From: Candidatus Choladousia intestinigallinarum
Lineage (GTDB): Bacteria > Bacillota > Clostridia > Lachnospirales > Lachnospiraceae
Assembly: GCA_018712605.1 (NCBI GenBank)
Contig: DVGR01000063.1
Span: 1 to 34,625 of the forward strand
Length of the DNA: 34,625 bases
Direction of reading: 5' to 3'
The notes under the pieces were generated by a model. It searched no databases and was not told where the DNA came from. It saw nothing but the letters and a program-made list of their open reading frames with translations. Made by a program: the position numbers and the translations under genes. This document shows, piece after piece, positions 5,804 through 17,753 of this stretch. The first letter of the stretch is position 1; each line of letters begins with the position of its first letter.

Positions 5804-7339
5804 ATGGATAAAATAACGAAACGAATTTTCAGCCGCCTTTTTTTTGTGGGAGTTGCCATTTTAGTACAGGTTTTCTGGATTATCCTGTCAGTGGCCACTC
5901 TTGGTTCCAGGCTGCCCTTTATGACGCTTCTGGTGGAGATTGTCAGTCTGCTGGCTGTGCTGTGGCTGGTGAACAAGGATATTAATCCCGCCTACAAGCT
6001 GGCATGGACCATTTTAATTCTTGCGGTTCCCATCGCCGGGGCTGTCATCTATTTTATGTTCGGAAAGTCCAGGCTGGCTAAGGATCTCAACGAAAAGCTG
6101 GAGGAAGCCAGACGGGAGACGGCAGAGCTGCTTAGGGAAGACCGGGAGGTGACGGGAAAGCTTGCCGAGCTGGATGAGGAGGCGGCCCTGCAGTCACGGT
6201 ACATCTGCGATTATGCAGGCTTTCCCCTGTACCAGAAGACGGAAACCCAGTATTTCCGGGTGGGAGAGGAACTGTACCTTGCCATGATCGAGGAGCTGAA
6301 CCGGGCGGAGCATTTTATCTTCCTGGAATATTTCATCATAGACGATGGAATCATGTGGCAGGGGATCCTGGACATTCTGGAATACAAAGTCAGGATGGGA
6401 GTGGATGTCCGCCTCATATACGATGACGTGGGGTGCGTGGACACGCTTCCCGCCAACTTCTATATGCAGCTTCGCAGGAGAGGCATTAAGTGTGAGGTTT
6501 TTAATCCCTTCCTGCCTATCGCCTCTGTGGTGCTTAATAACAGAGATCACAGAAAAATCATGGTCATTGACGGGCATACGGCCTTTACCGGGGGGATTAA
6601 CCTTGCGGACGAGTATATTAACCGGAAAAAAAGATTCGGATACTGGAAGGACACGGGCATTCTGCTCAGGGGAGAGGCGGTGTGGAGCTTTACCCTGATG
6701 TTTCTGCAGATGTGGAGCGTGCTGTCAGGGCAGAAGCAGGATTATTTGAAATACCGCCCTCATGAATGGCACAGCGAAGATTTTGCGGACGACGGCTTCG
6801 TGCAGCCGTATGGAGACACGCCGCTGGATCATGAGACAGTAGGAGAGAACGTATACCTGAACATTATCAACAGGGCCAGAAAATATATTTATATTTTTAC
6901 CCCTTATCTGGTCACGGACAATGAGATCACTACGGCCTTATGCCTAGCAGCCAAGAGCGGTACGGATGTGCGGATCGTCACGCCGGGGATACCGGACAAA
7001 AAGCTGGTATTCCTGCTTACGCAGTCCTACTATGACAAGCTGATACAGTCGGGAGTGCGGATCTTCGAGTATAAGCCTGGCTTCCTGCATGCCAAATCCT
7101 TCGTCTGTGACGATGAGATCGCCACGGTGGGGACGATTAATCTGGATTTCCGCAGCCTGTATCTTCATTTTGAGTGCGGAGTGTGGATGTACCGCTCAGA
7201 GGCGGTTCTGCAGATTAAGGAGGATGCTTTGGCTATTTTTAAGGAATGCCGGGAGGTCACATGGGAAGACTGTAAAAAGAAGTCCTTAGGGAAGCGGCTG
7301 CTGCAGAGCGTTCTGCGCCTCTTTGCGCCTCTCCTGTAA
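5804..7339 (+). CDS. cls: Cardiolipin synthase (phospholipase D family)
   Basis: This 511-residue membrane enzyme joins two phosphatidylglycerol molecules into cardiolipin and glycerol. Two N-terminal transmembrane helices (about residues 8-30 and 33-75, the latter split by a short loop) are followed by two phospholipase D domains. Each has an HKD motif: H249RKIMVID and H429AKSFVCDD, both followed by the usual G(G/T)INL segment. Length and order match bacterial ClsA-type synthases (about 480-510 residues). AAGAAGGA lies just before the ATG. The leader upstream is structured. The next gene, an envelope carboxypeptidase, starts 54 bases downstream without an evident terminator, so read-through is plausible. 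Confidence 0.95.
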   Translation: MDKITKRIFSRLFFVGVAILVQVFWIILSVATLGSRLPFMTLLVEIVSLLAVLWLVNKDINPAYKLAWTILILAVPIAGAVIYFMFGKSRLAKDLNEKLEEARRETAELLREDREVTGKLAELDEEAALQSRYICDYAGFPLYQKTETQYFRVGEELYLAMIEELNRAEHFIFLEYFIIDDGIMWQGILDILEYKVRMGVDVRLIYDDVGCVDTLPANFYMQLRRRGIKCEVFNPFLPIASVVLNNRDHRKIMVIDGHTAFTGGINLADEYINRKKRFGYWKDTGILLRGEAVWSFTLMFLQMWSVLSGQKQDYLKYRPHEWHSEDFADDGFVQPYGDTPLDHETVGENVYLNIINRARKYIYIFTPYLVTDNEITTALCLAAKSGTDVRIVTPGIPDKKLVFLLTQSYYDKLIQSGVRIFEYKPGFLHAKSFVCDDEIATVGTINLDFRSLYLHFECGVWMYRSEAVLQIKEDALAIFKECREVTWEDCKKKSLGKRLLQSVLRLFAPLL

Positions 7340-7393
7340 TTTTTTTCGGCCGTCCATAATATAGATGAAGAAAGAGCAGATGGGACGGTAAAT

Positions 7394-8554
7394 ATGAAGA
7401 AATGGATCAGCATCCTTTTGGCCGTATTTCTCCTGGCAGGAGCTGGGACTGGGGCCTTTGCCCAGGAAAATGCTCCTGAGATCCAGACCCCTCATGCGGC
7501 GGTGATGGAAGTCTCTACCGGTCAGATTCTCTACGAGAAGGAAGCGGACGCCAGGGTACATCCCGCCAGCGTCACGAAAATTATGACAATCCTTCTGACC
7601 TTTGAGGCTTTGGAGTCAGGGGAGATTTCTCTGGAGGATCAGGTGGTCACCAGCGCCAGGGCCAAGTCTATGGGAGGCTCACAGGTGTTTCTGGAGGAAG
7701 GGGAAGTACAGACGGTGGAGACCCTGCTGAAGTGTATTATCATCGCTTCGGGCAACGATGCGTCTGTGGCCATGGCGGAACATATCAGCAGCACGGAGGA
7801 AGCTTTTGTACAGAAAATGAATGAAGAAGCGGCCAGGCTGGGAATGGAAAACACGCATTTTGTGGATTGCTGCGGCTTGACGGATTCCTCGGAGCATTAT
7901 ACTTCCGCAAAAGACGTGGCCATTATGTCCAGGGAGCTTCTGTACCGCTTCCCTCAGGTGACAGAGTATTCTCACATCTGGATGGAAGATATCACCCATG
8001 TGACAAGGCAGGGCAGCAGTACATTTACCCTTACCAATACCAATAAGCTTCTTAGAAGCTATGACGGGTGTGACGGCCTGAAAACAGGCAGCACCAGCCT
8101 GGCTAAATTCTGTCTCAGCGCCACGGCCCGCAGGGACGGGATCCGCCTGATCAGCGTAGTGCTGGGAGCGCCGGATTCCAAGACACGTTTTTCGGAGGCG
8201 GGAAATCTCCTAAGCCATGGGTTTTCTATGTGCTCCATCTATTATGATGAAGAGATGGGCGAGCCAGGGGCTGCCAAGGTCAAGGGCGGAAAAGCTGATT
8301 TGGTAGATTTAGTTTATGAAGATGAATTTTCCTATCTGAGTACCACCGGGGAAGATTTTACCCAGATTAAGAAGGAGCTGGTGCTGGAGGAAGATCTGGA
8401 CGCTCCTGTAGAACAGGGGCAGCAGGCAGGAACGCTGGTGTACACGCTGAATGGGAAGAAGATAGGCGAGGTTCCCATCCTGGCTGCCGCTTCCGTGGAA
8501 AAAGCAGACTATAGCTACTGCCTGGGGGAGGTTTTCGACTCATGGTTTTTATGA
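7394..8554 (+). CDS. D-alanyl-D-alanine carboxypeptidase (peptidase S11, DacF-like), copy 1
   Basis: This 386-residue low-molecular-weight penicillin-binding protein removes the terminal D-Ala from peptidoglycan pentapeptides outside the membrane. A signal peptide (about 1-23, ending AFA-QE) precedes the S11 domain. Active-site motifs are S59VTK62, S119GN121 and K230TG232. A beta-rich C-terminal domain follows (about 275-375, PBP5_C-like). The closing segment, reaching YSYCLGEVFDSWFL, probably lies near the membrane. The family normally has a C-terminal amphipathic anchor. A paralogue with the same layout lies at 10956-12140. It follows the cardiolipin synthase gene by 54 bases. Confidence 0.93.
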   Translation: MKKWISILLAVFLLAGAGTGAFAQENAPEIQTPHAAVMEVSTGQILYEKEADARVHPASVTKIMTILLTFEALESGEISLEDQVVTSARAKSMGGSQVFLEEGEVQTVETLLKCIIIASGNDASVAMAEHISSTEEAFVQKMNEEAARLGMENTHFVDCCGLTDSSEHYTSAKDVAIMSRELLYRFPQVTEYSHIWMEDITHVTRQGSSTFTLTNTNKLLRSYDGCDGLKTGSTSLAKFCLSATARRDGIRLISVVLGAPDSKTRFSEAGNLLSHGFSMCSIYYDEEMGEPGAAKVKGGKADLVDLVYEDEFSYLSTTGEDFTQIKKELVLEEDLDAPVEQGQQAGTLVYTLNGKKIGEVPILAAASVEKADYSYCLGEVFDSWFL

Positions 8555-8579
8555 GGCGCCCCGGATGAAACTTGCCCTC

Positions 8580-8608
8580 TTGAACCATTTTCTCACTTAT
8601 GGTATACT
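8580..8608 (+). promoter_or_regulatory. Promoter of the metallophosphoesterase-scpA-scpB-carboxypeptidase unit
   Basis: TTGAAC (8580-8585), a 17-base spacer and TATACT (8603-8608) lie in the 147-base gap after the first carboxypeptidase. About 85 bases of leader follow. They contain a GGAGG followed by a 6-codon TTG frame, too short to be called a gene. Confidence 0.7.
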
Positions 8609-8701
8609 TCAAGAATTGATAAAAACGGAGGCTGCAGTTGGCGAAATACAGAATTTAAACAGCCACAGCCGGAGTGCGGCAGCGGAAAGGATAAGCTTGA
8701 T

Positions 8702-9499
8702 ATGAAGGATGTAAAGGTGACCCGCTACAAGGTGCGGGTCAGCCGGGAGGAAAACCGTCCGGCCCAGCCGTTTTCGGCCGTTTTTTTAAGTGACCTCCAT
8801 AATGCCGGATATGGAGAGGGAAACAGCAGGCTTCTTGCTGAGATCAGGAATCAGTCTCCCCAGGCAGTGTTCGTGGCCGGGGATATGGTGACGGCGGAGG
8901 AAAGTGCAGGCACCAATCAGGCTCTTTCACTCCTGGATGGACTGACGAAGCAGTATCCGGTCTATTATGCCAACGGGAACCATGAGTCCCGGCTGAAAGC
9001 CCAGCGGGAGAAGTATGGGGATTTATATGAAAAGTATTCCCAGGCCATTAAAAGCCTGGGGGTTCATCTCCTTGAAAATACATGCGAGAAAATAGAACTG
9101 GGGCGTGTGAGCCTTGCGGTATGGGGTTACGAGCTGCCTATAGAGTATTTTAAAAGAGGCAGGCTTCGCAGGCTGAGTCCGGAACAGATAGGGGAGACCC
9201 TTGGGGAGCCCCTGCCGGGGTGCTTTAACCTTCTCCTGGCCCATCACCCGGAATATTTTCCGGTGTATGCCAGGTGGGGAGCTGACCTTACTCTGTCCGG
9301 GCATCTCCACGGAGGAATGGTAAGGCTTCCGGGGCTGGGCGGAGTGATCAGTCCCAGGTTCCGCCTGTTCCCGGCCTTTGACCGGGGACTGTTTTCCAGG
9401 GGAGACAAGAAGCTGATCGTCAGTGCGGGGCTTGGAACCCACACGATTCCAGTCAGGTTCAATAATCCTCCGGAACTGGTGGTCATCGACTTCATTTAG
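8702..9499 (+). CDS. Calcineurin-like metallophosphoesterase (YkuE/YaeI-like)
   Basis: This 265-residue protein has the full binuclear-metal phosphoesterase signature in order: D31-L-H33 (SDLH), G60-D61, G92NHE95, then H181/H182 and G200HLH203. The C-terminal pattern GHLHGG followed by a proline/glycine strand and a GLGTHTIPVRFNNPPELVVI ending resembles the YkuE/YaeI group, whose members act on lipid phosphates such as UDP-diacylglucosamine or remain uncharacterised. No signal peptide or membrane helix is visible, so it is probably cytoplasmic or peripheral. It is the first gene of a run with scpA, scpB and a carboxypeptidase. The substrate cannot be read from the sequence. Confidence 0.85.
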   Translation: MKDVKVTRYKVRVSREENRPAQPFSAVFLSDLHNAGYGEGNSRLLAEIRNQSPQAVFVAGDMVTAEESAGTNQALSLLDGLTKQYPVYYANGNHESRLKAQREKYGDLYEKYSQAIKSLGVHLLENTCEKIELGRVSLAVWGYELPIEYFKRGRLRRLSPEQIGETLGEPLPGCFNLLLAHHPEYFPVYARWGADLTLSGHLHGGMVRLPGLGGVISPRFRLFPAFDRGLFSRGDKKLIVSAGLGTHTIPVRFNNPPELVVIDFI

Positions 9500-12187: not shown

Positions 12188-12232
12188 AGGCAGAAATTAG
12201 TCATATTTTAATATAAGATGGAGGACTGTAGA

Positions 12233-13669
12233 ATGAGTAATACATCACAAAGCTTAGCAGGCAAGAGGATATCCGGCTTGCTTGATGAGAACAGTTTTGT
12301 TGAGATCGGTGCCAACGTAACTGCCAGAAGCACGGATTTCAACATGCAGCAGACAGAAACACCGGGTGACGGAGTTATAACCGGCTATGGCGTGATTGCA
12401 GGGCGCCTGGTATATGTATACAGTCAGGATGCTTCTGTTTTAGGGGGCACCATCGGTGAGATGCATGCAAAGAAGATTACCGCTCTTTATGACATGGCCA
12501 TGAAGATGGGAGCTCCTGTGATCGGCCTTCTGGACTGTGCGGGACTGAGGCTTCAGGAAGCTACCGACGCACTGAACGCCTTTGGAGAGATTTATCAGAA
12601 ACAAGCCATGGCTTCAGGTGTGGTTCCGCAGATTGCGGCTGTTTTTGGAAGATGCGGCGGAGGGCTGGCTCTTGTACCGGCTCTTGCGGACTTTACTTTT
12701 ATGGAAGGCTCCAGCGCAGAGCTTTTCGTGAACACGCCCAATGCCCTGGCAGGCAACACAAAAGAAAAATGCAATACTGCATCTGCAGAATTCCAGAGTG
12801 CGGAAGCAGGGCTTGTGGATTTTGTGGGAAGTGAGGACGAGATCCTCTCCCAGATCCGTGAACTTGTGGATCTGCTTCCTTCCAACAATGAGGATGACAG
12901 CCAGTACCAGGAGTGTACGGACGATCTGAACCGTGTCTGCACGGATCTGGCCAATGCCCTGGGAGATCCCGCTGTTTTGGCGGCAGATCTGGCTGACGGA
13001 CATAATTTCCTGGAGGTTAAGAAAGATTACGCCAAGGATATGGTGACAGGGTTTATCCGTCTGAACGGAGCCACGGTAGGCGTTGTGGCCAACCGCACGG
13101 AGCTCTATGACGAAGAAGGAAATACGGCAGAGACCTTTGACTGTGCCCTCAGCGCAAAAGGCGCCCTGAAGGCAGCGGAGTTCGTGAATTTCTGCGATGC
13201 TTTTGAGATTCCGGTTCTCTCTGTGACCAACGTGGAAGGCTTCAAAGCAAGCAAATGCACGGAGAAGCGGATTGCCAAGGCGGCGGCGAAGCTTACATAC
13301 GCTTTTGCCAACGCAACGGTTCCCAAGGTAAACGTGATTACCGGCAAGGCATTTGGAAGCGCGTATGTGGCTATGAACAGCAAGGCGGTAGGGGCTGACG
13401 TGACCTTTGCCTGGAGCCAGGCCCAGATCGGCATGATGGAGCCGCAGTTGGCAGCCAAGATCATGTATGGGAACGAAAGCGCCACTGTTATCAATGAGAA
13501 AGCGGCAGAGTATGCGGCCCTCCAGTCCAGCGCCATGGCGTCTGCCAGGAGAGGATATGTAGATACAGTGATTGAAGCGGAGGATACGAGAAAATACGTA
13601 ATCGGCGCTTTTGAAATGCTGTTCACGAAGAGAGAGGATCGCCCGTCCAAAAAGCACGGAACGGTCTAA
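12233..13669 (+). CDS. Acyl-CoA carboxyltransferase subunit (MmdA / transcarboxylase 12S-like)
   Basis: This 478-residue crotonase-fold carboxyltransferase has the tandem N- and C-lobe layout of MmdA, PccB and transcarboxylase 12S. Such subunits move CO2 between an acyl-CoA (methylmalonyl, malonyl or glutaconyl) and biotin. The first oxyanion-hole segment is present as FGRCGGG (about 138-144), and the second as G371KAFGSAY378. The conserved DSGGARIQEG segment is changed to DCAGLRLQEA (101-110), so the protein is divergent and the acyl-CoA is uncertain. The ATG at 12233 is chosen because GGAGGA (12220-12225) lies seven bases upstream; the ATG at 12218 overlaps that site. First of five co-directional genes; no biotin carboxylase is present, which argues for decarboxylase or transcarboxylase use. 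Confidence 0.82.
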   Translation: MSNTSQSLAGKRISGLLDENSFVEIGANVTARSTDFNMQQTETPGDGVITGYGVIAGRLVYVYSQDASVLGGTIGEMHAKKITALYDMAMKMGAPVIGLLDCAGLRLQEATDALNAFGEIYQKQAMASGVVPQIAAVFGRCGGGLALVPALADFTFMEGSSAELFVNTPNALAGNTKEKCNTASAEFQSAEAGLVDFVGSEDEILSQIRELVDLLPSNNEDDSQYQECTDDLNRVCTDLANALGDPAVLAADLADGHNFLEVKKDYAKDMVTGFIRLNGATVGVVANRTELYDEEGNTAETFDCALSAKGALKAAEFVNFCDAFEIPVLSVTNVEGFKASKCTEKRIAKAAAKLTYAFANATVPKVNVITGKAFGSAYVAMNSKAVGADVTFAWSQAQIGMMEPQLAAKIMYGNESATVINEKAAEYAALQSSAMASARRGYVDTVIEAEDTRKYVIGAFEMLFTKREDRPSKKHGTV

Positions 13670-13683
13670 GCGAGGTGAATCAG

Positions 13684-14622
13684 ATGAAACATAGATTAAG
13701 TGCAATACTGCTTGCAGCAGGGCTCACCGTGTCTGCCTTCTCCATGGGCGTATCGGCAGAAGAGACAGAGACTGAGGCAGGGCAGCAGGCTACGGAGGCT
13801 GTGACAGAGGCGGCAGACCTGGAGGAAGAAGAGGTTCAGGAAGCCTTAAGCGAGGCGGAGTCCGAGCTGGAATCCCAGGAACAGGCGGCCCAGAGCGAGG
13901 CTTCCGGTACAGAGACAGAAAGCGAGACCGAGTCAGAGTCCATGTCAGAGGAGGAATACTACGTCAGCATTGCCGAGTCTTACCTTCAGACCTTAAGCGA
14001 TATGGACGATGCCAGCCTGGCGGCCATGGAAGAGAGCGATGACGCAGGATCCGCCCTGGTTGCTTTTAACTGGGCATCCGCTCAGGGGGAGCTGGGGGAT
14101 TTTGAGGAAGTTACCAGCGTGGAAGTATCCATGGAGGGACAGAATCTGATCCTTCTGGCCCATGCGAAATATGAAGAAGTTGCGGACACCACGGACGTGG
14201 AAGTGACCTTTACATTTACGGTACAGAGTACTTCCATGGCGCTTTCCAATATCGAATGGAATGTGGAATATCCTTTGAGTACGCTGCTTCAGAGAGCCGG
14301 TCTGAATACAGTGATGGGACTGGCCATCGTGTTTGCGGCTTTGGCATTCCTTACCTTCGTGATCGGAAAGCTTCACTTTATTTCTGATTTTGTGGAAGGA
14401 AAGGGAAAGAAAAAAATAAAAGAAGAACAGCCTGCCCAGGCGGCAGCGGTGCCGGTACAGGCAGTTCCGGAGCCGGAGCCGGAAGAAGAGGATCTGACGG
14501 ACGACCTGGAGCTGGTGGCAGTGATCGCAGCGGCTATTGCCGCTTCGGAAAACAGATCCCCGGAGGGATTTGTGGTTCGCTCCATCCGCAAGGCAAATAA
14601 GAGAAACTGGCGCAACGCCTGA
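13684..14622 (+). CDS. OadG-family decarboxylase subunit with secreted N-terminal domain
   Basis: This 312-residue protein is much longer than classic OadG/MmdD (about 80-120 residues). In order it shows a signal peptide (1-25, GVSA-EE), a Glu/Ser/Thr/Ala-rich acidic stretch (26-90), a folded extracytoplasmic domain of about 100 residues (91-195) containing a DFEEVTSVEVSMEGQNLILLA strand pattern, a transmembrane helix (209-229), an Ala/Pro/Glu linker, and a cytoplasmic tail with DDLELVAVIAAAIAASE and a terminal VRSIRKANKRNW box. The single helix plus the VAVIAAAIAA and R-R-x-x-x-W ending is the OadG-like part, which in known pumps assembles the alpha and beta subunits. GCGAGGTG lies before the ATG at 13684, and the gene follows the transferase by 14 bases. 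The role of the outer domain is unknown. Confidence 0.75.
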   Translation: MKHRLSAILLAAGLTVSAFSMGVSAEETETEAGQQATEAVTEAADLEEEEVQEALSEAESELESQEQAAQSEASGTETESETESESMSEEEYYVSIAESYLQTLSDMDDASLAAMEESDDAGSALVAFNWASAQGELGDFEEVTSVEVSMEGQNLILLAHAKYEEVADTTDVEVTFTFTVQSTSMALSNIEWNVEYPLSTLLQRAGLNTVMGLAIVFAALAFLTFVIGKLHFISDFVEGKGKKKIKEEQPAQAAAVPVQAVPEPEPEEEDLTDDLELVAVIAAAIAASENRSPEGFVVRSIRKANKRNWRNA

Positions 14623-14649
14623 ACACCATAATTACAGGAGGATAGACTG

Positions 14650-15054
14650 ATGAAAACTTATACAATTACAGTAAATGGAAATGTGTACGATGTGACAGTG
14701 GAAGAGGGAACCGCTGCTGCGGCAGCTCCCGCACCGGCAGCCCCCAAGGCAGCTCCTGCTGCTCCTAAGGCAGCACCGGCAGCCCCCAAGGCGGCTCCCG
14801 CACCGAAAGCAGCGCCCGCTCCTGCAGCAGGCGGCGCCGGATCCGTTCAGGTGACAGCTTCTGTTCCCGGCAAGATCTGCAGCATAGAGGCCAGCGTGGG
14901 ACAGGCTGTGAAGGCCGGAGATTCCATTGTGGTTCTGGAAGCTATGAAGATGGAGATTCCTGTAGTTGCGCCCCAGGACGGTACGGTGGCAAGCATTAAT
15001 GTAGCGGCAGGCCAGGCTGTGGAATCTGGCGATGTTCTTGCGACCATGAACTAA
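14650..15054 (+). CDS. Biotin carboxyl carrier protein (decarboxylase gamma / transcarboxylase 1.3S-like)
   Basis: This free-standing 134-residue carrier has three parts: an N-terminal strand segment (1-20, MKTYTITVNGNVYDVTVEE), an Ala/Pro/Lys linker (21-63), and a biotinyl domain (65-134). The biotinylation site is VLEAMKMEIPV with acceptor K100, set in two symmetric half-domains as in lipoyl/biotinyl folds. The flexible linker lets biotin swing between active sites. It is the only biotin acceptor in the operon, so it presumably serves both carboxyltransferases and the membrane pump. GGAGGATAG precedes the ATG. The biotin ligase that would load it is not in the window. Confidence 0.93.
   Translation: MKTYTITVNGNVYDVTVEEGTAAAAAPAPAAPKAAPAAPKAAPAAPKAAPAPKAAPAPAAGGAGSVQVTASVPGKICSIEASVGQAVKAGDSIVVLEAMKMEIPVVAPQDGTVASINVAAGQAVESGDVLATMN
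14743..14820 (+). repeat. Ala-Pro-Lys linker repeats in the biotin carrier
   Basis: Two heptads PKAAPAA and two hexads PKAAPA (residues 32-57) are encoded in tandem. Synonymous codons differ between units, so the repeat is kept at protein level more than at DNA level. Confidence 0.8.
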
Positions 15055-15071
15055 GAACAGGGGGTAATGAA

Positions 15072-16229
15072 ATGTCTTATATCACAACAACGCTGGCAAA
15101 TCTTCTGGATCAGACGGCCTTTCTGAACCTTACGGTGGGAAACTACGTCATGATCCTGGTTGCCTGTGTGTTTTTGTACCTGGCCATCAGGCATGGCTTT
15201 GAGCCCCTGCTGCTGGTTCCCATCGCTTTCGGTATGCTGCTGGTAAACATTTACCCGGATATCATGGCGGAGCCTTACGTGGATGCGGCTGGAATAGAGC
15301 ATGCAGGCGGTCTGCTTCACTATTTCTACATTCTGGATGAGTGGAGTATTTTACCGTCCCTGATCTTTATGGGTGTGGGAGCTATGACGGATTTCGGCCC
15401 GCTGATCGCAAATCCCCGCAGCTTTCTCATGGGAGCGGCGGCACAGCTTGGTATTTATGTGGCGTATTTCCTGGCTATTTTCATGGGCTTTGACGGAAAA
15501 GCGGCGGCAGCCATCTCCATTATCGGCGGTGCGGACGGCCCTACTTCCATTTTCCTGGCAGGAAAACTGGGACAGACCGACATCATGGGACCCATTGCCG
15601 TTGCGGCATATTCCTATATGTCTCTGGTACCCATTATCCAGCCGCCCATTATGAAGCTTCTGACCACGGACAAAGAGAGAAAGATCAAGATGGAGCAGCT
15701 TCGCCCTGTCTCCAAGCTGGAGAAAATTCTCTTCCCCATTATTATTACCATCGTAGTCTGCGTGCTCCTTCCCTCCACGGCGCCTCTGGTAGGTATGCTT
15801 ATGCTGGGAAATCTCTTCAGGGAGAGCGGAGTGGTAAAACAGCTTACGGAGACGGCTTCCAACGCTCTGATGTACATTGTGGTTATCCTGCTGGGTACTT
15901 CTGTAGGCGCAACCACCAGTGCGGAAGCTTTCCTGAATTTGGATACCCTTAAAATCGTGGCTCTGGGTCTGGTGGCTTTCGCCTTTGGTACCGCAGGCGG
16001 CGTGCTTCTCGGAAAACTGATGTGCAGGCTCTCGGGATGGAAGATCAATCCTCTGATCGGTTCAGCCGGAGTATCCGCCGTGCCTATGGCCGCCCGTGTG
16101 TCCCAGAAGGTAGGGGCGGAGTATGATCCCACCAACTTCCTGCTGATGCACGCAATGGGGCCCAACGTGGCAGGCGTAATCGGTACTGCCGTGGCAGCCG
16201 GTACATTTATGGCGATTTTCGGAGTTTAA
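15072..16229 (+). CDS. Sodium-translocating decarboxylase beta subunit (OadB/MmdB/GcdB family)
   Basis: This 385-residue integral membrane protein decarboxylates carboxybiotin and uses the energy to export Na+. It has about nine hydrophobic segments. Family signatures are intact: GGADGPTSIF with the key aspartate D155, a GNLFRESGVVKQL box, and the C-terminal SAVPMAARVSQ followed by FLLMHAMGPNVAG. The length is slightly below the 430-residue Klebsiella OadB and matches shorter MmdB/GcdB-type subunits. It starts 17 bases after the biotin carrier. The N-terminus begins with a short soluble stretch before the first helix. The coupling ion is inferred from the family to be Na+. Confidence 0.93.
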   Translation: MSYITTTLANLLDQTAFLNLTVGNYVMILVACVFLYLAIRHGFEPLLLVPIAFGMLLVNIYPDIMAEPYVDAAGIEHAGGLLHYFYILDEWSILPSLIFMGVGAMTDFGPLIANPRSFLMGAAAQLGIYVAYFLAIFMGFDGKAAAAISIIGGADGPTSIFLAGKLGQTDIMGPIAVAAYSYMSLVPIIQPPIMKLLTTDKERKIKMEQLRPVSKLEKILFPIIITIVVCVLLPSTAPLVGMLMLGNLFRESGVVKQLTETASNALMYIVVILLGTSVGATTSAEAFLNLDTLKIVALGLVAFAFGTAGGVLLGKLMCRLSGWKINPLIGSAGVSAVPMAARVSQKVGAEYDPTNFLLMHAMGPNVAGVIGTAVAAGTFMAIFGV

Positions 16230-16258
16230 GCCCGTATTGAAATAAACAGGAGGAAAAA

Positions 16259-17671
16259 ATGGCAGAACAAGTTAAAAAACCAATAAAAATTACAGAGACG
16301 ATTCTGCGTGACGCGCACCAGTCACTGATCGCAACAAGAATGACCACCGAGCAGATGCTTCCTATCGTGGAAAAGCTGGATAAGGTGGGCTACCACTCCG
16401 TAGAGTGCTGGGGCGGCGCTACCTTTGACGCCTGCCTTCGTTTCCTGAAGGAAGATCCCTGGGAAAGGCTGCGCAAGCTCAGAGACGGATTTAAAAATAC
16501 GAAGCTGCAGATGCTTTTCAGAGGACAGAATATTCTGGGCTACAGACCATACGCAGATGACGTGGTGGAATATTTCGTTCAGAAATCCGTAGCTAACGGA
16601 ATTGATATCATCCGTATTTTCGATTGTATGAACGACATCCGCAACCTGCAGACAGCGGTTACGGCGGCTAACAAAGAGAAAGGACACGCCCAGGTGGCTA
16701 TGTCCTATACTCTGGGAGATGCCTATACTCTGGAGTACTGGGTAGACCTGGCCAAGAGAATCGAGGATATGGGAGCCAACTCTATCTGTATCAAAGATAT
16801 GGCCGGCCTGCTTGTTCCCTATAAAGCCACAGAACTTGTGACAGCTCTCAAAGAGAATGTCTCTATTCCGATTCAGCTTCACACCCATTATACTTCTGGA
16901 GTGGCTTCCATGACCTACTTAAAAGCTGTGGAGGCAGGGGTTGACGTGATCGACACAGCAATGTCTCCCTTTGCACTGGGTACTTCACAGCCTGCCACAG
17001 AGGTTATGGTGGAAACCTTCCGGGGAACGCCCTATGATACAGGCTTTGACCAGAATCTTCTGGCTGAGATCGCGGATTACTTCCGTCCTCTCCGGGATGA
17101 GGCTCTGGCATCCGGGCTTCTCAATCCCAAGAACCTGGGCGTGGATATCAAGACTCTGCTGTATCAGGTACCGGGAGGAATGCTCTCCAACCTGACTTCA
17201 CAGCTGAAAGAGCAGCATGCGGAGGATAAATTCTACGATGTTCTGAAGGAGGTTCCGAGAGTAAGGAAAGATCTGGGTGAGCCGCCTCTGGTTACTCCTT
17301 CTTCTCAGATCGTGGGAACCCAGGCAGTATTTAACGTGCTGATGGGTGAGCGCTATAAGATGGTGACAAAAGAGACTAAGGCAGTTCTCTCCGGTGAGTA
17401 CGGCGCTACGGCGAAGCCCTTTAATCCGGAAATTCAGAAGAAATGTATCGGAGATAAGCAGCCGATTACCTGCCGTCCGGCAGATCTGATTCCTGATGAG
17501 CTGGATACTCTTCGCGGTGAGATGGCTCAGTGGTCTGAGCAGGACGAGGACGTTCTGTCCTACGCTCTCTTCCCGCAGGTGGCTGTTGACTTCTTTAAGT
17601 ACAGACAGGCACAGGAAAAGAAAGTAGATCCTTCGGTAGCGGATGCGGAAAATAAGGCGTATCCCGTATAA
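16259..17671 (+). CDS. Oxaloacetate decarboxylase alpha / pyruvate carboxyltransferase subunit (OadA / PycB / transcarboxylase 5S-like)
   Basis: This 470-residue TIM-barrel enzyme moves CO2 between oxaloacetate and biotin. The conserved opening ITETILRDAHQSL holds metal ligand D18, IKDMAG holds the candidate carbamylated lysine K179, and LHTHYTSG holds metal ligands H208 and H210. The post-barrel segment includes YQVPGGMLSNL and a PPLVTPSSQIVGTQAV box. The chain stops before a biotinyl domain, unlike the Klebsiella alpha subunit (about 590 residues), which fits use of the separate carrier. AGGAGG lies five bases before the ATG. It is the last gene of the operon, followed by a good terminator. 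PycB of a two-subunit pyruvate carboxylase is the main alternative, but no PycA-like biotin carboxylase is nearby. Confidence 0.9.
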   Translation: MAEQVKKPIKITETILRDAHQSLIATRMTTEQMLPIVEKLDKVGYHSVECWGGATFDACLRFLKEDPWERLRKLRDGFKNTKLQMLFRGQNILGYRPYADDVVEYFVQKSVANGIDIIRIFDCMNDIRNLQTAVTAANKEKGHAQVAMSYTLGDAYTLEYWVDLAKRIEDMGANSICIKDMAGLLVPYKATELVTALKENVSIPIQLHTHYTSGVASMTYLKAVEAGVDVIDTAMSPFALGTSQPATEVMVETFRGTPYDTGFDQNLLAEIADYFRPLRDEALASGLLNPKNLGVDIKTLLYQVPGGMLSNLTSQLKEQHAEDKFYDVLKEVPRVRKDLGEPPLVTPSSQIVGTQAVFNVLMGERYKMVTKETKAVLSGEYGATAKPFNPEIQKKCIGDKQPITCRPADLIPDELDTLRGEMAQWSEQDEDVLSYALFPQVAVDFFKYRQAQEKKVDPSVADAENKAYPV

Positions 17672-17712: not shown

Positions 17713-17753
17713 AAGGCTGATGTGAAATATGGGTTTTGCATCAGCCTTTTTTT
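17713..17753 (+). terminator. Intrinsic terminator of the carboxyltransferase / Na+ pump operon
   Basis: A 10-bp stem (AAGGCTGATG with CATCAGCCTT) closes a 16-base loop and ends in seven T residues (17747-17753). The next gene starts only 18 bases later, so the thiamine gene either relies on read-through or on a promoter inside this area. Confidence 0.9.

Follow-up and report, generated by a model that had tools for sequence, protein, structure and literature searches.

A conserved five-gene operon of Lachnospiraceae combining two carboxyltransferases, one biotin carrier and a predicted sodium pump

Gene organization of the operon

We have analysed a stretch of 34,625 nucleotides of Candidatus Choladousia intestinigallinarum, a member of Lachnospiraceae (contig DVGR01000063.1 of assembly GCA_018712605.1; hereafter the window), which carries an operon of five genes for biotin-dependent carboxyl transfer. 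The genome was assembled into 279 contigs and is 86.8% complete. The five genes lie on the + strand within positions 12233-17671, are separated by gaps of 5-29 bases, and encode, in this order, an acyl-coenzyme A (CoA) carboxyltransferase (CT), an OadG-like subunit, a free biotin carrier, OadB and OadA (Table 1). The original prediction, made from the sequence of the window, had described this set, and both its description and its coordinates agreed with the gene calls and with the Pfam and NCBIfam matches; the Pfam scores of all five products are far over the cut-offs. A closing terminator had also been proposed, and a hairpin with a T tail is indeed present after the last gene. This hairpin is singled out by its stem length alone, because the terminator scan overall gave no excess over shuffled sequences (7 sites and 7.4 sites, respectively). 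Promoter-like sites were likewise at the chance level (6 found, 5.5 expected).

Table 1. Features of the operon and its signals in the window.
Feature	Position	Strand	Description
GGAGG, ribosome-binding-site-like	12220..12224	+	Read in the sequence; eight bases before the CT ATG at 12233
Short acyl-CoA CT (12S/MmdA/PccB fold), 478 aa	12233..13669	+	PF01039 Carboxyl_trans, 5.5e-108
OadG-like subunit, 315 aa, GTG start	13675..14622	+	PF04277 OAD_gamma, 5.5e-18, residues 207-291
Free biotin carrier, 134 aa, EAMKME biotinylation site	14650..15054	+	PF00364 Biotin_lipoyl, 1.3e-17
OadB/MmdB Na+-translocating carboxybiotin decarboxylase subunit (predicted), 385 aa	15072..16229	+	PF03977 OAD_beta, 1.5e-154
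OadA/5S-type pyruvate/oxaloacetate carboxyltransferase, 470 aa, without own biotin domain	16259..17671	+	PYC_OADA, 7.3e-57
Intrinsic-terminator-like hairpin, 16 pairs, then T tract	17713..17748	+	G-T pairs allowed, 5 G-C

Conservation within Lachnospiraceae

The search with the CT gave 480 related stretches, and the best 80 loci were kept for neighbourhood analysis, in which the partner genes were sought by tblastn at a lax expect value (E) of 10. All four partners were found on the same strand and in the same order at every one of the 63 loci with 6.2 kb or more of sequence counted from the CT start, and the 69 loci showing all five matches have an identical gene order. At a stricter E of 1e-4, one of the 63 loci (L064) was without an OadG match.

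For the family as a whole, we used 150 genomes spread evenly over Lachnospiraceae, one per genus. A CT match was obtained in 134 of them (E 1e-20) and an OadA match in 136 (E 1e-120). After canonical, weak or distant matches had been removed, the short CT was counted in 131 genomes, the near OadA in 133 and both in 127, and the two genes are at most 3.03 kb apart on the same contig in 115 of these 127 genomes and on different contigs in the other 12. The CT looks damaged in two genomes of the sample, one having an in-frame stop (G004) and the other a match split over both strands (G147).

The five-gene operon is real, family-wide and beyond chance. Because of the 63 complete loci and the 115 genomes with close pairs, we conclude that both transferases are retained with one carrier and one pump, and the reading that they share the carrier is supported by this conservation. 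The earlier view that the operon unites the gene sets of transcarboxylase and Na+ decarboxylase pumps was right, and separated transferase genes are not the family pattern.

The short carboxyltransferase

The closest titled relative of the window CT comes from Candidatus Choladousia intestinavium (97% identity), and the other titled relatives belong mostly to Lachnospiraceae or to genera that we take to be Lachnospiraceae. A tree built from 17 short and 41 canonical CTs places all the short ones in a single group (support 100/100), whose stem has a length of 1.82 changes per column. The median pairwise identity amounts to 72% for the 81 short CTs (the window and the 80 related loci), 66% for the canonical CTs and 42% across the two sets. 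At 86 switched columns, the letter shared by 90% or more of the canonical CTs is found in less than 10% of the short CTs, some of these switches being mild (e.g., Leu to Ile); a further 111 columns show the same conservation in both sets. The short CT lacks about 30 N-terminal residues, together with K-T-.-R-E, LGG..H and the H-G of RHGAK, which are conserved at 90% or more in the 41 canonical CTs.

The window CT scored 422.6 bits with the mmdA model TIGR01117, far under the cut-off of 998.8; this model is strict, and a canonical paralogue in the same genome is likewise under the cut-off (618.3). From this low score and from its clade apart from the 41 canonical CTs, the window CT is not of the canonical MmdA type. 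Its assignment to the acyl-CoA carboxyltransferases in the original prediction holds, while its membership in a divergent clade had gone unremarked. Such divergence would be consistent with a change of function or of subunit contacts. A decayed pseudogene was also considered and was rejected clade-wide, since all 81 frames have 440-520 aa and are under strong constraint.

The predicted structure of the CT (predicted local distance difference test (pLDDT) 77, predicted template modelling score (pTM) 0.82) matched transcarboxylase 12S (1on3_A, TMq 0.86) and also propionyl-CoA carboxylase beta in a Foldseek search. Gly-Gly at 142-143 and Ser/Ala at 376-377 are presumably the small residues at the oxyanion pockets, the only check on this assignment being the D407/I407 contrast of 6ybp and 6ybq. 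A change from AVMG to GMME was once read as loss of an oxyanion hole, and this idea was dropped because the D-to-I difference after GGAY between 6ybp and 6ybq puts the specificity site elsewhere. The neighbourhood of that site is kept save for one Gly to Ser. The residue at this site is V379 in the window CT, and its commonest letters are V, I, A, T and S, in 56, 9, 6, 5 and 3 of the 81 short CTs, respectively; it is not the Asp found in some propionyl-CoA carboxylases. One specificity residue cannot settle the CT substrate (PMC7835884; here and below, statements on published work refer to the portions of the papers available to us).

The long stem and the loss of the N-terminal residues and of highly conserved canonical stretches would agree with the short CT being a scaffold or regulatory subunit, such as a CoA-ester sensor, of a standard Oad pump. 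This role, which is compatible with either direction of flux and with the other alternatives discussed below, is in our judgement unlikely, since many positions are invariant in 81/81 sequences, the columns common to both sets are numerous, the small residues at the presumed oxyanion pockets are kept and the CT fold is predicted to be intact.

The canonical paralogue (533 aa, full-length) is located on another contig (C144; L010, positions 7817-9418), between a cardiolipin-synthase-like gene and a frame resembling, by eye, a membrane acyltransferase. It sits on a long tree branch (1.64), and Pfam found no pump gene among its tested neighbours.

Carrier, OadB and OadA

The AMKM motif of the carrier is present in 72 of 77 sequences, the misses being four with SMKM and one 39-residue fragment, and the carrier scored 110 with the MmdC-specific model NF047903 (cut-off 200). 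OadB is over the cut-off of TIGR01109 (477.7 and 190.6, respectively), and GGADGP and NPLIGSAGVS, which we take to be pump motifs, were found in 73 and 71 of 76 sequences, the three misses of the former all being fragments. In OadA, the presumed metal-site motif DAHQS is present in 70/70, and KDM and HTH are kept where the patterns tried first had failed, except in a 198-residue fragment. The motifs of the three proteins thus appear to be kept family-wide in the cases checked, apart from fragments and conservative swaps.

A second OadB gene was found on the - strand of another contig (C236; L004, positions 7269-8405), downstream of a heavy-metal-type P-ATPase gene and of a small frame resembling, by eye, a copper chaperone. 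Among its tested neighbours, Pfam found no OadA, OadG or carrier.

OadA ends at 470 aa without a C-terminal biotin domain, the carrier being a gene of its own. It is over the cut-off of the oxaloacetate decarboxylase alpha model NF008985 (761.4 and 718, respectively), under that of TIGR01108 (687.1 and 756.5), which models the biotin domain as well, and under that of the 5S model NF008984 (560.9 and 827). The best solved relative is the pyruvate carboxylase beta subunit 5ks8_C (1.8e-153), followed by OadA 2nx9 (1.9e-152). This order would suit an arrangement in which AccC of the fatty-acid cluster joins OadA and the carrier to make an ATP-dependent pyruvate carboxylase of the two-subunit type, the pump being a separate use of the carrier. 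AccC is present in the window genome, within an accBCDA cluster; it is the sole biotin-carboxylase match there, in agreement with the earlier statement that the operon has none. We consider this arrangement very improbable, since each of the 63 loci with room has OadA together with OadB and OadG, AccC is on a separate contig (C81), and the NCBIfam equivalog reached by OadA is an oxaloacetate decarboxylase.

The OadG-like subunit

The OadG-like call is correct (PF04277, 65.9 over a cut-off of 27; TIGR01195, 35.4, just under 36.05), and a long N-terminal region had gone unremarked in it. The window protein consists of a signal-like N-terminus, a predicted domain, one membrane helix and the conserved OadG C-terminal segment. 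In 76 family members, 136-222 residues stand ahead of the membrane-helix motif, and 44 of the 76 have a lipobox-like cysteine near the N-terminus by an ad hoc pattern. At 35 loci of other families, the longest open frame lying between CT and carrier measures 119 aa in the median and never more than 158 aa (the OadG identity of these frames was unchecked). The extra domain was predicted with pLDDT of at least 90 in blocks, from residue 91 to 230. At E 0.01, DUF3887 matches were obtained for 22 of 38 members, the window protein itself being unmatched, and the domain had no PDB match under E 0.001, the weak best being cystatin/NTF2-like. Because the N-terminus is signal-like or has a lipobox, the extra domain would lie outside the cell; it would be unusual for a subunit of a Na+ pump to carry an extracytoplasmic sensor or anchor.

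Loci in other families and comparison with known systems

Among 348 genomes sampled over the phylum, of which 4 are marked as the same family, at least 168 have a CT match at 1e-95. Within the matches listed, CT identity over 60% is confined to the same family, and the best elsewhere is 48%. We fetched 40 neighbourhoods from other families as a chosen sample, and 34 have at least 5 kb downstream. The commonest layout, found in 25/34, is CT, carrier and OadB within 4.5 kb and no OadA; the rest have the carrier only (4), carrier and OadA (2), none of these (2), or canonical CT, carrier, OadB and OadA clustered (only one, locus L103 of genome G423). The combination of CT, carrier, OadB and OadA therefore exists at least once outside Lachnospiraceae. 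Judged by the commonest layout, the Lachnospiraceae operon resembles an operon of the methylmalonyl-CoA decarboxylase type to which OadA has been added.

The genes of methylmalonyl-CoA decarboxylase are ordered MmdA-MmdD-MmdC-MmdB, and the operon has a CT, an OadG-like subunit, a free carrier and OadB in the same order. It differs from that system in the additional OadA, the short and divergent CT, the long N-terminal region of OadG and the lack of a mutase match in the 150 genomes (see below). With OadGAB it shares OadA, OadB and OadG with their conserved motifs, whereas its biotin domain is a separate protein, and an acyl-CoA CT heads the operon at every locus examined (the loci having been found via the CT). 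Unlike one- or two-subunit pyruvate carboxylase, it is without a biotin carboxylase domain.

By Pfam, both carboxyltransferase classes and one free biotin carrier are shared with propionibacterial transcarboxylase, to our knowledge an enzyme without a Na+ pump, while the scores with the more specific 5S and mmdA models are under the cut-offs. The occurrence of 12S-, 1.3S- and 5S-type parts together in the operon, and of CT, carrier and OadA with no OadB within reach at two loci in other families (L112 and L130), would be in line with a transcarboxylase, in which CT, carrier and OadA exchange carboxyl groups between pyruvate and an acyl-CoA such as malonyl-CoA, with OadB-OadG as a side branch or anchor. 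We regard this as quite unlikely for the Lachnospiraceae operon, since the membrane pump and OadG are present at 63/63 loci with room, methylmalonyl-CoA mutase was not found in the family sample, and the score with the 5S model is under its cut-off.

The C. thermocellum genes Cthe_0699-0701 presumably encode CT, carrier and OadA, with no OadB or OadG in the cluster. They are listed as a three-gene oxaloacetate decarboxylase set (PMC3561251). Our literature search found no paper describing the five-gene operon, and the available portion of PMC3199775 is also silent on the layout; within this search, which covered few subscription journals, no characterised enzyme with two carboxyltransferases on one pump was found either.

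Metabolic context

At E 1e-30, no methylmalonyl-CoA mutase (PF01642) was found in any genome of the family sample of 150 (control genomes positive, 8/14), and none was found in the window genome. This makes a methylmalonyl-CoA role unlikely, and methylmalonyl-CoA was set aside as the CT substrate; the corresponding option of the original prediction is weakened. For the same reason, acetyl-/malonyl-CoA would be the likeliest CT pair.

We also searched the 150 genomes for enzymes leading from C3 compounds to oxaloacetate. Full-length pyruvate carboxylase (PYC; TIGR01235 at E 1e-250, which detects the full-length form only), bacterial phosphoenolpyruvate carboxylase (PEPC), and GTP- and ATP-dependent phosphoenolpyruvate carboxykinase (PEPCK) were found in 8, 1, 1 and 90 genomes, respectively. 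The only genome with bacterial PEPC (G084, contig C7) has no CT or OadA match. Good-quality genomes number 125, with 115 having operon markers (short CT or near OadA) and 10 having none. PYC or PEPC was found in 4/115 good genomes with markers and 5/10 without (Fisher p = 1.2e-4), and in 4/137 and 5/13, respectively, when all genomes were used (p = 2.3e-4); relatedness was ignored in both comparisons. This inverse relation suggests the operon as an oxaloacetate source. Furthermore, 34 of the 115 good genomes with markers have none of PYC, PEPC, ATP-PEPCK and GTP-PEPCK, which leaves the operon as the sole route from C3 to oxaloacetate in them among the routes searched. Draft genomes can hide genes.

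Proposed mechanism and direction of flux

We tentatively prefer, as a possibility somewhat short of probable, that the products form one membrane-bound, biotin-dependent, Na+-coupled carboxyl-exchange complex, whose main role is the net formation of oxaloacetate from pyruvate at the expense of the Na+ gradient. The biotin of the free carrier would visit three sites. At OadB, it would take up or release CO2, coupled to the movement of Na+; at OadA, it would exchange the carboxyl group with pyruvate/oxaloacetate; and at the short CT, the exchange would be with an acyl-CoA, most likely acetyl-/malonyl-CoA. The operon would then be an anaplerotic substitute for ATP-dependent PYC, with the CT linking the carrier to malonyl-CoA. 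The assembly into one complex, the CT substrate and the direction of flux are what we infer here. Na+-driven carboxylation, one option of the original prediction, gains some support from the PYC/PEPC distribution, and the direction is not settled by it.

There are precedents for this direction. In vitro reversal, in which Oad and methylmalonyl-CoA decarboxylase carboxylate pyruvate and acetyl-CoA, goes back to work of Dimroth and Hilpert of 1984 (cited in PMC10090949 and PMC7274780). Oad of Halomonas elongata is reported to contribute to anaplerosis under a steep Na+ gradient (PMC7545133), and an anaplerotic Oad has been proposed for Vibrio natriegens with knockout support (PMC10090949). Our proposal resembles these two in that pyruvate carboxylation driven by the Na+ gradient would serve anaplerosis; they are halophilic Gram-negatives, for which the available text does not mention a second CT. 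For butyrivibrios, placed by the authors in Lachnospiraceae, oxaloacetate decarboxylase was called worth investigating as an oxaloacetate source in 2015 (PMC4478896). One genome paper counts oxaloacetate decarboxylase among the enzymes of anaplerotic pathways (PMC5322786).

Several points weigh against net carboxylation by such a complex. That the five proteins would assemble into one complex is a proposal based on the conserved operon. The route searches did not cover two-subunit PYC, archaeal-type PEPC, pyrophosphate-dependent PEPCK or malic enzyme. PEPCK (ATP or GTP) is commoner with the operon (78/115 good genomes with markers and 3/10 without, p = 0.03, relatedness ignored), as expected if PEPCK supplies oxaloacetate to a decarboxylating pump, and the window genome itself carries ATP-PEPCK (contig C243). 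PYC occurs alongside the markers in four good genomes (G024, G025, G081 and G133), and three good genomes (G039, G087 and G109) have neither markers nor the other enzymes, two of them with a more distant OadA. Oxaloacetate decarboxylation is strongly downhill (-34.4 +/- 6.2 kJ/mol; PMC8100219), so that it can run backwards only where the Na+ gradient is steep or CO2 is high; the same review, of 2020, describes it as irreversible and the Na+-pumping type as mainly proteobacterial.

The ordinary direction, in which the complex exports Na+ while decarboxylating oxaloacetate (formed by PEPCK or from aspartate or citrate) and possibly also malonyl-CoA, is in our view the somewhat less likely alternative. 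The operon has the subunits of a Na+ decarboxylase pump, and the co-occurrence of PEPCK is in favour of this direction. Genome papers annotate Lachnospiraceae genes as oxaloacetate decarboxylase (PMC3561251, PMC9682168): Cphy_2433-2434 of C. phytofermentans are so annotated, with a shunt of PEPCK and oxaloacetate decarboxylase (PMC3561251), and Anaeropeptidivorans has been read as using a Na+-extruding decarboxylase (PMC9682168). However, this direction does not predict the inverse relation with PYC/PEPC, and other sources of oxaloacetate are needed for the 34 good genomes with markers in which PEPCK, PEPC and PYC were not detected.

Flanking genes

The genes on both sides of the operon look housekeeping: a D-Ala-D-Ala carboxypeptidase gene upstream, with scpA, scpB and an alanyl-tRNA synthetase gene farther upstream, and a thiamin pyrophosphokinase gene downstream.

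Significance for Lachnospiraceae

Since PYC and PEPC were found in only 8 and 1 of the 150 genera, respectively, it is not obvious how the other genera obtain their oxaloacetate for aspartate and glutamate, and the operon is a single candidate for filling the oxaloacetate pool in Lachnospiraceae. If it works as a carboxylase, a dominant family of the human gut would fix CO2 into C4 acids at the expense of the Na+ gradient and not of ATP; if it works forward as a decarboxylase, the family would have an additional energy-conserving site. A wider proposal is that Lachnospiraceae have mostly replaced ATP-dependent PYC by a Na+-driven two-substrate hub that carboxylates pyruvate and acetyl-CoA via one carrier. 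We think this rather unlikely as it stands; if true, gut anaerobes would fix CO2 by means of a carboxyl hub coupled to the Na+ gradient across their membrane.

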